From assembly GCF_022227765.1 (NCBI RefSeq), contig NZ_JAJMLZ010000014.1, forward strand, positions 1-32,987: a stretch of 32,987 bases of DNA. Reading direction: 5' to 3'. A program made the position numbers and the translations under genes. A model generated the notes under the pieces. The model searched no databases. It was given only the letters and a program-made list of their open reading frames with translations, and was not told where the DNA came from. Below, in pieces: positions 55 to 32,987 of the stretch. This DNA is from Ectothiorhodospira shaposhnikovii. GTDB lineage: Bacteria; Pseudomonadota; Gammaproteobacteria; Ectothiorhodospirales; Ectothiorhodospiraceae. Positions within the stretch are counted from its first letter, which is position 1. Each line of letters opens with the position of its first letter.

Positions 55-885
55 TGTGTACGCCCGACATGGGCATGAACTGATGGGGTGAAAGTCCCCT
101 GTAGGAGTACCTGTGATGTCCACTCTGTGGACGACTGTAACTACTAGCCGACGGCAAGGGCAAACCCGTGAGGGAATGTCTGAAGGAAGCCCGAGCGCAA
201 AGGGCGAGCCGACGGACAGACAAAATCGCCGGGAGCGATTTTGAACAGCCGCAGGCTGGCCCGAAGGGCGAGCCCCAGGGATGGGGCGAGTAAATCGCAT
301 ATAAGGCTCAGTCCCCGGGCGAGTCAGCACAAGGTGACAAAGCCCATCAGGTGCAGGGGATAGGGTAAATGCGGCGGTTGTGCACTGAAAGTTCATGTTC
401 TTATTCGGGGAGATCTGTCTCACTTGCGGTCCGTGTCCCTATGGGAGTCGAACTGAGGGCCGGCTCGAAAGGGCCGGAATAACCATCGAACCCTACCGGG
501 GCTGTGGTCGCCATGGGAGCCGGACTGAGGGCCAGCCCGAAAGGACTGGAATCACCACCGGACCCTACCGTGACCCGGACAGCGCGCCAATCGGCAACGC
601 TTGGCGTGATGAGGCAGAAGTCAGCAGACGGCATAGTAGCCAAACGCTCACCGTAATGGGTGAGACACGGTGAAGGCCCGAACCTCCGGCAACGAGAGAG
701 ACCCGCGTGTCTCAACGGCCGTAATGCGCCCGACCGGGTGAAACGGCCTTGGCGATTCGTTGGGTAACCAGCGTTGAAGGTCACCATGGTTGCATGGTCC
801 TTTGAACTCCGGAGGAAACGCCCCGTGCGGACCCGCATGCGGGATGTTGTGGAGGCCGGGGGAGAAAAACCCCCGGCTATCCGAT
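55..885 (+). mobile_element. Group II intron without an encoded protein (ORF-less)
   Basis: The start GTGTACGCCCGACATGGGC closely resembles the 5' end of known bacterial group II introns (usual GTGCGCCCGACATGGGC), with two extra bases. Other family-typical stretches follow: TGATGGGGTGAAAGTCCCC (81-99), GAGGGAATGTCTGAAGGAAG (171-190), TTCATGTTCTTATTCGGGGA (391-410) and GGCAGAAGTCAGCAGACGGC (613-632). The 3' end holds a domain V-like stem with the GTGCGGACCCGCATG core (815-840). Domain VI has perfect arms GCCGGGGG/CCCCCGGC, a candidate branch A at 879 and the end CTATCCGAT (877-885). In relatives a 1.3-1.8 kb reverse transcriptase frame lies between GAAGGCCCGAAC (about 673-684) and domain V. 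Here only about 110 bases lie there, and none encode RT motifs. Splicing or mobility would need a maturase from elsewhere. I found no convincing EBS1 for the T-rich 5' flank, so the copy may be degenerate. Confidence 0.8.
441..571 (+). repeat. Two imperfect 58/59-bp direct repeats inside the intron
   Basis: Copy 1 is 441-498 and copy 2 is 513-571. Both begin ATGGGAG and end ACCCTACCG, with about nine substitutions and one extra A in copy 2. Each copy can form a short hairpin. A pair inside that stem changes from G-C in copy 1 to A-T in copy 2, a compensatory change that suggests a kept RNA structure, probably in intron domains II-IV. Confidence 0.6.
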
Positions 886-30922: not shown

Positions 30923-31123
30923 TTAACCGCCGCCGATGGCCTGCACGATCTCGATGCGATCGCCGGGAGCAAGGCGGTGGGCGTCGAACCGGCTGCGGGG
31001 CAGCAGTTCGCCGTTCACTTCCATGGCCAGGCGGCGACCGGTCAGGCCCAGTGCTTCCACCAGTGCGGTTGCGGTGGGCGGCTCCGGCAGTTGGCGGGTT
31101 TCGCCATTGACAATGATGTCCAT
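30923..31123 (-). CDS. thiS: Sulfur carrier protein ThiS
   Basis: This 66-aa beta-grasp, ubiquitin-like protein carries sulfur as a C-terminal thiocarboxylate for ThiG. It starts [15 protein letters not shown] and ends IVQAIGGG with the required Gly-Gly tail. AAGAAG precedes the ATG. It is the first gene of the thiS-thiG-trmB unit and divergent from the tRNA-Gly locus. I saw no TPP riboswitch in the 134-base gap. Confidence 0.95.
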
Positions 31124-31217
31124 CGTGGAATCTTCTTAAGTAGACGGATGGCAGGGGAGGCATCTTAACGTAAAGCCGTCGCGTTCGGGACGCATGGTCC
31201 CGCGTGCGTCGTGACCG

Positions 31218-31246
31218 TTGAGAAGCGAACCCCGAGCGCATACACT
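31218..31246 (+). promoter_or_regulatory. Sigma-70 promoter of the interrupted tRNA-Gly gene
   Basis: TTGAGA (31218-31223) and TACACT (31241-31246) are separated by exactly 17 bases. Transcription would begin near 31253, about five bases before the tRNA. It would drive the 5' exon, the intron, the internal tRNA and the reverse transcriptase as one transcript. Confidence 0.75.
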
Positions 31247-31257
31247 ATGGTCACTGC

Positions 31258-31296
31258 GCGGGTGTAGTTCAATGGTAGAACCTCAGCTTCCCAAGC
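31258..31296 (+). tRNA. tRNA-Gly(CCC), 5' exon only, interrupted by a group II intron
   Basis: These 39 bases hold the acceptor strand GCGGGTG, the D arm (GTTC/GAAC), the anticodon stem TCAGC, the loop TTCCCAA with anticodon CCC, and the first two bases (GC) of the stem's 3' strand. The sequence then changes to GTGCGACGCG, a group II intron 5' end. The missing part should begin TGA (to complete GCTGA) and end CACCCGC-T-CCA; it is not in the window and is expected after the intron. Confidence 0.88.
31282..31296 (+). other. Intron-binding sites IBS2 and IBS1 in the tRNA anticodon arm
   Basis: IBS2 is CTCAG (31282-31286) and IBS1 is CCAAGC (31291-31296), directly at the splice junction. They are exact complements of CTGAG (31694-31698) and GCTTGG (31729-31734) in the intron. 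Confidence 0.72.
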
Positions 31297-31693
31297 GTGC
31301 GACGCGAGTCGCAAAGGTAGCTAGCCTTCCCCCACGTTTAAGAGGGGTAGAGTAGCACCCAATCGGGTATCAGCGTCCGACCCTTGTGGTCGGGGGTCAT
31401 GGTGCCCTAGCGGCGAAGGCCGCTTCAATGATTGTCCAGCATCGTCTTCGGGCGATTGCAGTGGACCGGATGTTCAGCCATCCGTAGCCTAGGGGCGGTG
31501 CGGCGTTGGTAACGACGCGGTGCTAAGCGCCCTGACAATGTAGCCACCCATGCGGGTACATGCCGTCCCGCGAGGGGTGGCATGTGTAACCAGAAGACGC
31601 GTCTGGTGAGGCGCTAGGCTGGTCTAAAGGGTTAGCGTAAGCTAATCGCTGTTAAACGCCGTAAAGTTGAACAGGCCAAAGCGTCTGACAGGC

Positions 31694-31741
31694 CTGAGCC
31701 AAAATGGCAAGTGGTCGGTTGTCCTGTTGCTTGGTCGGGAC
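31694..31741 (+). other. EBS2 and EBS1 of the tRNA-inserted intron
   Basis: EBS2 CTGAG (31694-31698) and EBS1 GCTTGG (31729-31734) are exact complements of IBS2 and IBS1 in the tRNA 5' exon. EBS1 lies in the loop of a short GTCC/GGAC hairpin, as expected for domain I. Confidence 0.68.
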
Positions 31742-32003
31742 ACGCTGACATCAGCACCACCGGCGGAAAGGCGAAACCCTCGTAGACCGTGTCATTGACG
31801 CGGAACGCGGTAAGCCCGACACGCTGTCCCCTCGGGGACTAGGCCCACCGCAAGGTGTGCCGAAGGCGTAGCGGGTAAAGGATCGTGGAGAAAGCGAATG
31901 CCCTGCTGTAATGGTGGGGATAGGGGATGAAACGATCGCCCCGATGCGAAAGCATGCTGACTTCCACGTGGTGGCCTGTCGCTAGATAGGCCTGTAGAAA
32001 TCG

Positions 32004-32035
32004 CCCTGAGGGGACTGTACACGGTCCCCTCAGGG
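32004..32035 (+). other. Perfect 12-bp hairpin just before the internal tRNA
   Basis: Arms CCCTGAGGGGAC and GTCCCCTCAGGG surround TGTACACG. It is probably an intron domain III/IV stem. It has no T-run, so termination before the internal tRNA is unlikely. Confidence 0.6.
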
Positions 32036-32065
32036 GAGAAGCGTGTATCAGTCCTCAAAGGTACC

Positions 32066-32139
32066 GCGGGTGTAGCTCAATGGTAGAGCTCCTGCTTCCC
32101 AAGCAGGCGACGTGGGTTCGATTCCCATCACCCGCTCCA
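32066..32139 (+). tRNA. Complete tRNA-Gly(CCC) carried inside the group II intron
   Basis: All parts are present: acceptor GCGGGTG with CACCCGC, D stem GCTC/GAGC, anticodon stem CCTGC/GCAGG with loop TTCCCAA (anticodon CCC, reading GGG), a four-base variable loop, T stem GTGGG/CCCAT with loop TTCGATT, discriminator T and an encoded CCA. It has the same anticodon and very similar D arm and acceptor as the interrupted tRNA upstream, but a different anticodon stem (CCTGC instead of TCAGC). No good promoter is seen directly upstream, so it probably depends on the tRNA promoter at 31218 and on processing from the intron RNA. It lies 42 bases before the RT start codon. Confidence 0.93.
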
Positions 32140-32181
32140 CTCCTGTCCCGTTCCGGGATGGGGTTCACCTAGGAGACTGAT

Positions 32182-32987
32182 ATGGACGCTATTTCACATA
32201 AATGCGATGTCGTCTCCTCCGACTGGACGCACTGGCACCAGATTCATTGGTTCAGTAGCTACCAGGCGGTGCGACGACTACAGACCCGCATAGCGAAGGC
32301 GCTCAGCTTGGTGACTGGCGTAAAGCCAGACGTCTGCAGCGGCTGCTGATACGCTCATCGAGCGCAAAGGCGATCGCGGTAAGGCGTGTCACCGAGAATC
32401 GGGGTCGCAAAACCCCCGGCGTGGATGGCATTACCTGGTCCACTCCGGAGTCGAAAATGATGGCCGTCCGGGCTCTTGAGCCCAAAGGCTATCGACCAAA
32501 GCCTCTTCGGCGTATTCACATTCCCAAAGCCAACGGAGGGAAACGCCCGCTGGGTATCCCCACGATGCACGACCGAGCCATGCAGGCGCTGTATCTGCTG
32601 GCCCTGGAACCTGTCGCGGAGACCACGGCTGATCCCAATTCCTACGGCTTTAGACCCGAGCGTTCCACGGCGGATGCTATTGTCCAATGTCGGAACGCAC
32701 TCGGACGCTCCCACTCTCCGGAGTGGGTGCTGGATGCCGATATCAAGGGTTGCTTTGACAATATCAGCCATGACTGGATGGTGAAGCATGTCCCCATGGA
32801 TGTGTCGATCCTGAAGAAGTGGCTCAAGGCAGGGTATGTGGCCCAAGGGCGTCTGTTTCCGACCCAGGCCGGCACTCCGCAAGGCGGGATTATCTCGCCC
32901 ACCCTTGCCAACCTCGTGTTGGACGGGCTGGAACGTGGGTTGAAGGAGCATTTCCCACGGCGGGCGAAGCTCAATGTGGTGCGGTAC
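32182..32987 (+). pseudogene. ltrA: Group II intron reverse transcriptase/maturase, frameshifted, cut by the window end
   Basis: Translation would begin at ATG 32182, 6 bases after AGGAG, giving MDAISHKCDVVSSDWTHWHQ and a family-typical start up to QTRIAKALS. Near 32308-32310 the coding frame moves back by one base; the initial frame stops at 32340. From 32310 the next frame continues as GDWRKARRLQRLL, TPGVDGITW (RT-0), GGKRPLGIPTMHDRAMQALY (RT-1), NSYGFRPERSTADAI (RT-2), WVLDADIKGCFDNISHDWM (RT-3, with catalytic Asp) and AGTPQGGIISPTLANLVLDG (RT-4). The window ends at VVRY, where YADD is expected. No slippery heptamer is obvious, so a one-base deletion or sequencing error is likelier than programmed frameshifting. 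The C-terminal maturase and any endonuclease domain are not visible. Confidence 0.88.

Follow-up and report, generated by a model that had tools for sequence, protein, structure and literature searches.

A group II intron lineage in tRNA-Gly genes carries a second tRNA-Gly and may be a natural home-and-rescue element

Bacterial group II introns are said to seldom interrupt housekeeping genes (PMC6003770), and in bacteria the closest described case is TeI4h of Thermosynechococcus elongatus, which interrupts the one tRNA-Ile(CAU) gene of that cyanobacterium and is considered to splice out of it (PMC2882425). We describe a related but distinct arrangement in a 32,987-nucleotide (nt) stretch of DNA from Ectothiorhodospira shaposhnikovii (NZ_JAJMLZ010000014.1), hereafter called the window, which is one entire contig (G000:C6) of genome G000. 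Near its right end, a group II intron breaks a tRNA-Gly(CCC) gene and holds, between its 5' ribozyme domains and its reverse transcriptase (RT), a complete second tRNA-Gly(CCC), hereafter the cargo. Like TeI4h, the element is a group II intron in a bacterial tRNA gene. Unlike the cargo carriers described here, TeI4h is said to rely on splicing, and the passages on it mention no internal tRNA (PMC2882425).

Other known systems share one or another feature of this arrangement. Chloroplast trnK with matK (PMC4424553) and a red algal plastid tRNA-Met intron with a maturase gene (PMC3607583) likewise combine a group II intron with an essential tRNA gene, but both are organellar and stable, and the passages describing them do not mention a second tRNA. 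Group I introns likewise occur in bacterial tRNAs, as putative introns in Thiomargarita and Beggiatoa (PMC4853749) and as a self-splicing intron in Azoarcus (cited in PMC4390854). These belong to another ribozyme class, and again a cargo tRNA is not mentioned in the passages. tRNA genes inside introns have also been listed: the "intron-encoded" tRNA genes of fungal mitogenomes (PMC7902536), for which the passages state neither the intron class nor a tie to an interrupted tRNA, and the "intronic tRNA" genes of red algal mitochondria, whose nature is not clear from the passages. Two engineered drives, HomeR (PMC7968924) and Cleave and Rescue (PMC7951863), likewise target an essential gene with a homing element that carries the replacement. 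Both are man-made, operate in animals and involve neither an intron nor a tRNA. Finally, integrases that use tRNA genes restore the 3' end of the gene from the element's own DNA. They too repair damage with element DNA, but they are DNA recombinases that supply a 3' end only, as against a whole second gene inside a ribozyme. Our literature search, which left subscription papers mostly uncovered, turned up no case of a second tRNA carried within a group II intron that interrupts a tRNA gene; such a search cannot prove that none exists. That group II introns interrupt bacterial and organellar tRNA genes is already known. What appears to be new is the second tRNA inside one, for which we found no report, and the strategy it suggests is otherwise known to us only from engineered drives.

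The interrupted gene is a housekeeping locus with an insertion. The host tRNA-Gly(CCC) starts at 31258 and runs for 39 nt on the forward strand (31258..31296, tRNA positions 1-40), after which, between bases 40 and 41, the intron begins with GTGCGAC at 31297. This 5' half is identical at 39/39 nt to the intact tRNA-Gly(CCC) of all eight same-genus relatives that were read out, across which the gene is a single identical sequence, representing "empty" sites. In genome G004, the upstream flank is 85% identical to that of the window over 245 aligned nt and continues into an uninterrupted gene. The flank identity and the intact genes together identify the window locus as a housekeeping site with an insertion at position 40/41. 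A tandem tRNA array was also considered and rejected, given the single gene at this site in the relatives read. The conserved chromosomal site is marked by thiS (30923..31123, reverse strand; Pfam ThiS, E 2.5e-14), and thiS-like sequence was seen by eye upstream of the tRNA in G004, G006, G010 and G355 as well. A sigma-70-like promoter (TTGAGA, 17 nt, TACACT; 31218..31246, forward strand) precedes the tRNA, although as evidence this is weak: the promoter-like site search found one site in 31100-32300 against 0.6 expected by shuffling.

The inserted sequence is the 5' part of a group II intron (31297..32987, forward strand), recognized by its Rfam match and by homologous complete introns. Rfam group-II-D1D4-7 (RF02012) matches at 31466..31614 (forward strand; 105.8 bits, E 1.7e-21, gathering threshold 34), and this family is the closest class assignment made. 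The cargo, complete with an encoded CCA, occupies 32066..32139 on the same strand (ARAGORN; Rfam tRNA, 73.4 bits). It is followed by a group II intron RT/maturase gene (32182..32987, forward strand; RVT_1, E 1.8e-30 for 32421-32987). A first, sequence-only reading of the window had recognized both the tRNA-Gly(CCC) half broken at a GTGCG intron start and the full tRNA-Gly(CCC) between ribozyme domains and RT, and these assignments are borne out. Because the contig ends inside the RT, domains V and VI and the 3' tRNA half are not visible in the window. No 3' end, 3' half or further piece of the element was found in the G000 assembly, where the four domain V (D5) matches belong, by eye, to other introns, and no second copy of the element was found in this genome. 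The missing 3' half would be expected behind the RT and domains V/VI and should resemble TGATGACG...CACCCGCTCCA.

Complete relatives place the second tRNA inside the intron. In total, five genomes from four families yielded six elements, and a remnant was found in addition. Four elements are complete, two in G281 and one each in G355 and G758 (loci L144, L145, L146 and L250), with introns of 2583-2590 nt. Each has the order tRNA 5' half, D1-D3, hairpin, cargo tRNA, RT, D5 and D6 ending CCCGAC, and tRNA 3' half. Because the RT is followed by domains V/VI and the 3' tRNA half in all four, the internal tRNA lies within the intron, and a second tRNA outside the element is rejected. This is what the sequence-only reading had deduced from the order of parts in the window, with domains V/VI and a tRNA 3' half after the RT as its test. 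The 3' exon it predicted, beginning TGA and ending CACCCGC-TCCA, is found in L145; the exons of two other relatives begin TTT and TTA.

The termini and exons of these elements are those of group II introns in tRNA genes. RF02012 matched in the window, L119, L144, L145, L146 and L250, and D5 (RF00029) in the four complete loci; the window and G010 contigs end before this point. The 5' end is GTGCGAC in 6/6 elements and the 3' end CCCGAC in 4/4 complete ones; the group II consensus ends are 5' GTGYG and 3' AY. Joining the exons gives a tRNA-Gly with the host anticodon in all four. As a control, joins shifted by 1-2 bases (four per element) were called tRNA-Gly in 0/4 and 0/4 cases for the G281 copies, 4/4 for G355 and 3/4 for G758, so the control is uneven. 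The RTs of L144, L145 and L146 contain RVT_N, RVT_1, GIIM and HNH domains, and the L250 RT scores 821 bits against the carrier profile. TIGR04416 exceeds its cut-off in L145 and L146 and falls below it for the truncated window piece (227.7 of 300).

Carriers were sought at several taxonomic levels. A search of 96 related genomes yielded the remnant in G002 and the element in G010, which belongs to another genus of the same family and shows the same order as far as the contig end, 64 nt into its cargo. The intron 5' part without the tRNA, used as a query against 369 genomes of the class, matched in 13, own genome included, and regions were fetched from 10 of the other 12 (G192 and G307 were left out). 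The three class matches at 74-77% identity over >500 nt (two in G281, one in G355) all have a tRNA in the intron. In the weaker class matches no tRNA was found between D1-D4 and D5, the tRNAs of L151 and L152 lying outside. Seven of 398 genomes drawn from the phylum matched, again including the window's own, and regions were fetched from all of the others but G478 and G745. G758, at 72%, has the tRNA, whereas the introns in four more regions, from G782, G710 and G680, hold none. No other carrier was found in the window's own order (47 genomes, RT matches with E up to 1e-100), where the two other RTs, in G019 and G031, lack a tRNA, nor, by intron 5' part, in the orders of G355 (57 genomes) and G281 (11 genomes). 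We also considered and rejected a cargo from a phage or plasmid lineage. In IMG/VR, one scan gave a single match, in a sequence without an intron match, and another gave none; an RT search there returned 80 loci, and the first 23, which were scanned, had no tRNA. Among the plasmid matches listed, the best-ranked intron match, at 68%, spans 64% of the query; for the RT, identity in the best-ranked match is 65%.

The carriers form a single RT lineage. A tree built from 52 RTs unites those of the five carriers (support 99/97; 100% of 200 bootstrap trees); it does not include G010, whose contig stops short of the RT. A tRNA within 900 nt upstream was found for none of the other 47 RTs, a scan in which L024 and L050 had almost no upstream sequence and two more had 561 and 629 nt. 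Among the 80 RT loci of another search, several of them cut short upstream, ARAGORN found tRNAs in four (L042, L078, L083 and L085), all downstream of the RT match. Because the carrier RTs form one group and other RTs show no upstream tRNA, the cargo trait looks like a single gain in one lineage.

All six elements appear to recognize the same site, in the anticodon arm. A proposed exon-binding site 1 (EBS1), GCTTGG, in a hairpin loop at 31729..31734 (forward strand), pairs at 6/6 positions with CCAAGC of the host gene (-6..-1), and a proposed EBS2, AAGTTGA at 31664..31670 (forward strand), pairs at 7/7 positions, one of them G-U, with host -14..-8. The names are our own assignment, and the 7-mers compared were entered by hand. 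The host 5' half thus holds the corresponding intron-binding sites, IBS2 and IBS1, in line with the pairing between an intron domain and the anticodon arm that had been read from the window at the outset. Across elements, the GCTTGG loop and its 6/6 pairing to CCAAGC are the same in 6/6, and EBS2 pairs at 5-7 of 7 positions. The EBS2 stretch differs along with the host arm, including between the TCC copy and the CCC copies. Pairing to the cargo is weaker than pairing to the host in four of the six elements and equal in two (G010 and G355), and IBS1 is intact in the cargo of three of six. Among 293 loci compared, the junction CCAAGC-GTGCGAC is confined to the six elements and the remnant, apart from one viral match that is unrelated; no cargo-less intron was therefore seen at this site.

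The cargo keeps its tRNA structure and the anticodon of its host. ARAGORN calls a tRNA-Gly with the host's anticodon in five of six elements; in the sixth, G010, the cargo is cut at position 64 by the contig end and its anticodon is CCC by reading. The cloverleaf keeps 21/21 pairs in 5/5 cargos (105/105 cells paired), and seven pairs show two-sided, compensatory changes. On four of five measures, 0/500 shuffles reach the observed value; on the fifth, further pair types, 60/500 do. When the structure is slid, pairing is 44-52%. In G355 (L146 1140-2013 and 3769-3803), the cargo equals the usual intact host gene, and it is the exons whose anticodon stem, though paired, is unusual, as though the two had changed places.

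Two sister elements in G281 (RT support 100/95) allow cargo and host to be compared across isoacceptors. One interrupts a CCC gene and the other a TCC gene located between tRNA-Tyr and tRNA-Thr, and each cargo carries the anticodon of its own host gene. The two host genes differ exactly at positions 31, 33 and 46; the two cargos differ from each other at these three positions, where they share the letters of their hosts, and additionally at 19. Between the two copies, identity is 94.6% in the cargo, 85.4% in D1-D3, 87.5% in domain IV before the cargo and 75.5% in the RT gene. The cargo identity and the shared letters indicate that the cargo has been held at, or drawn to, the identity of its host. 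Separately, the sequence upstream of the TCC element (L144 700-1310, G281:C49) contains an RtT RNA match, repeats with the tRNA-Tyr 3' end and a stretch of N.

In every genome checked (G000, G002, G281, G355 and G758), no uninterrupted gene other than the cargo was found for the anticodon that the cargo carries. When G281, G355 and G758 were compared with the intact gene, the matches were the interrupted halves and the cargos, joined by a TCC gene in both G355 and G758 and by one match of 19 nt in G281. Both CCC and TCC were found in G281 solely as an interrupted gene plus cargo. G000 and G002 are drafts, and in each the cargo is the only CCC gene found. G002, of the same genus as the window, holds a decayed element (L120 1454-1669 and downstream, G002:C31): the 5' half, the first 16 intron nt, 87 nt more and an intact cargo identical to that of the window. 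No 3' half was found in G002, so splicing could not restore the gene there. The frame behind this remnant looks by eye like a piece of an integrase and has no Pfam match.

Folding predictions place the cargo in a structural relationship to the RT start. A domain IV hairpin lies ahead of the cargo (32004..32035, forward strand; 5/5 single folds, and in the consensus fold with broken cells). A stem is then predicted to close around the cargo, its 5' strand at 32041..32056 (consensus fold; 4/5 single folds, not G758) and its 3' strand at 32171..32189 (both forward strand), so placed that the consensus fold has the cargo at the stem tip and the RT ribosome-binding site and start codon (32182) on the 3' strand. 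In the outer stem, 33/40 cells are standard pairs, across five sequences only, and the RT start, ATGGACG, is invariant in 5/5 carriers. This fold, which is suggestive only, resembles the way in which certain group II RTs close off the start site of their own gene by binding to it. The open RT frame of the window runs from 32259 to the contig end and the start codon at 32182 lies in a different frame, which indicates a frame break near 32300 in this copy.

We interpret these elements as natural "home and rescue" retroelements in tRNA-Gly genes, a reading to which we give a probability of roughly 0.7 and in which the rescue itself is what we infer. Retromobile group II introns would home into tRNA-Gly between positions 40 and 41, where the anticodon stem has its 3' strand. 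Pairing of EBS1 with IBS1 and of EBS2 with IBS2, which we observe as complementarity, would guide them. The host tRNA promoter would transcribe 5' half, intron, cargo, RT and 3' half as one RNA. Splicing of the intron would restore the host tRNA; if it does not splice, RNase P and the 3' processing enzymes would still release the cargo tRNA. With a tRNA supplied spliced or unspliced, we propose, insertion into a translation gene would be tolerated. Excision of the cargo would also split the intron in domain IV, where natural trans-splicing introns are mostly split (PMC4424553), and would undo the stem in which the RT start lies. Through these effects tRNA processing may, speculatively, also tip the element towards host service or towards mobility. 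The fuller proposal, a home-and-rescue clade whose cargo anticodon is re-tuned on moving between isoacceptor genes and in which tRNA processing switches between host service and mobility, seems to us probable, with rather less assurance.

Several observations count against this interpretation. Five of the six elements are in CCC genes, and G000, G002, G355 and G758 have an intact TCC gene. E. coli manages without tRNA-Gly(CCC) where tRNA-Gly(TCC) is present, while tRNA-Gly(TCC) is essential there. tRNA-Gly(CCC) may thus be dispensable, and by this analogy rescue would be stringent only in the TCC case: only the TCC copy of G281, with no other contiguous TCC gene among the G281 matches, interrupts a gene expected from E. 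coli to be essential. Efficient splicing would make a spare unneeded, and the TeI4h passages mention none (PMC2882425). As the pairing comparison indicates, the cargo is only partly "recoded" against re-insertion. From position 44 onward the cargo equals the 3' exon in three of four complete elements, so part of the match could stem from recombination rather than selection, and the G281 stretch after the RT (D5 and D6) is as conserved as the cargo, at 94.5%. For the window copy, whose RT frame is broken, the assembly offers no 3' end. Splicing, processing of the cargo and mobility are predictions from sequence. The rescue role that the sequence-only reading gave the cargo is supported by the anticodon match in G281, the compensatory changes and the remnant with only its cargo intact, but its claim that insertion costs the host nothing is too strong.

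Other explanations would give the internal tRNA a different role. Seated at the tip of the domain IV stem that holds the RT start, it could be a working part of the element, its cutting by tRNA-processing enzymes regulating how the RT is translated or putting an end to the intron RNA. The consensus fold, with the stem closed around the tRNA and the RT start on its 3' strand (in 4/5 single folds), and the invariant start sequence fit this idea, but a regulatory tRNA requires no particular anticodon, and the cargo tracks that of its host. The incomplete pairing of the outer stem, the lack of upstream tRNAs in the 47 non-carrier RTs and the survival of the cargo in G002 although the RT is gone also weaken it, and we regard it as unlikely. 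Slightly less credible still is passive capture, by which a tRNA was caught in domain IV through recombination with a neighbouring tRNA gene and then underwent gene conversion with the exons, to no benefit. Such exchange would account for the identity of cargo and 3' exon beyond position 44 and for the G355 cargo that equals the usual intact host gene while its exons differ. It sits poorly with the intact cargo kept in five diverged elements (the sixth, in G010, is cut by the contig end), with changes that are compensatory, and with the G758 cargo, which differs from its exons at 14/74 positions. In G281, conversion could explain position 46, yet to copy 31 and 33 its tracts would have to spare the differing stem bases 30 and 38.

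These two explanations are possible, but neither explains well why the anticodon follows the host or why the remnant retained its cargo. That the cargo protects or spreads its carrier, as a decoy, an additional homing site or a place where other elements land, strikes us as very improbable. An intact IBS1 in three cargos and the equal pairing to cargo and host in G010 and G355 would suit such a site. Against this, four of the six cargos pair worse than their hosts, and none of the cargos read holds an inserted element.

Some further observations concern related introns and sites. In L254 (3607-3773, G680:C24), the D5 match of a related, cargo-less intron ends six bases short of a tRNA-Leu(CAG) gene, and another tRNA of this kind follows downstream. 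The D5 match of another related intron, in L251 (3891-4079, G782:C1), overlaps the start of an S-adenosylhomocysteine (SAH) riboswitch match by 5 nt, so that this intron appears to sit at the riboswitch head. L121 and L122 (G044 and G027) contain, by reading, tRNA-Gly(TCC) genes cut by contig ends just beyond the insertion site, and neither gene is interrupted there. Two further group II D1-D4 matches, RF02001 at 162-400 and RF01998 at 583-678, lie at the left end of the window (162-678); no RT was recognized by eye among the open reading frames of at least 120 amino acids listed nearby.

This lineage shows a way around the cost of insertion, which is to carry the gene that is broken. Engineered home-and-rescue drives would have a natural counterpart in it, and it would offer a convenient way to test what allows or prevents the residence of mobile introns in essential genes. 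The remnant in G002 further shows a route of tRNA gene replacement: the element has decayed, and its cargo is now the only tRNA-Gly(CCC) gene found.

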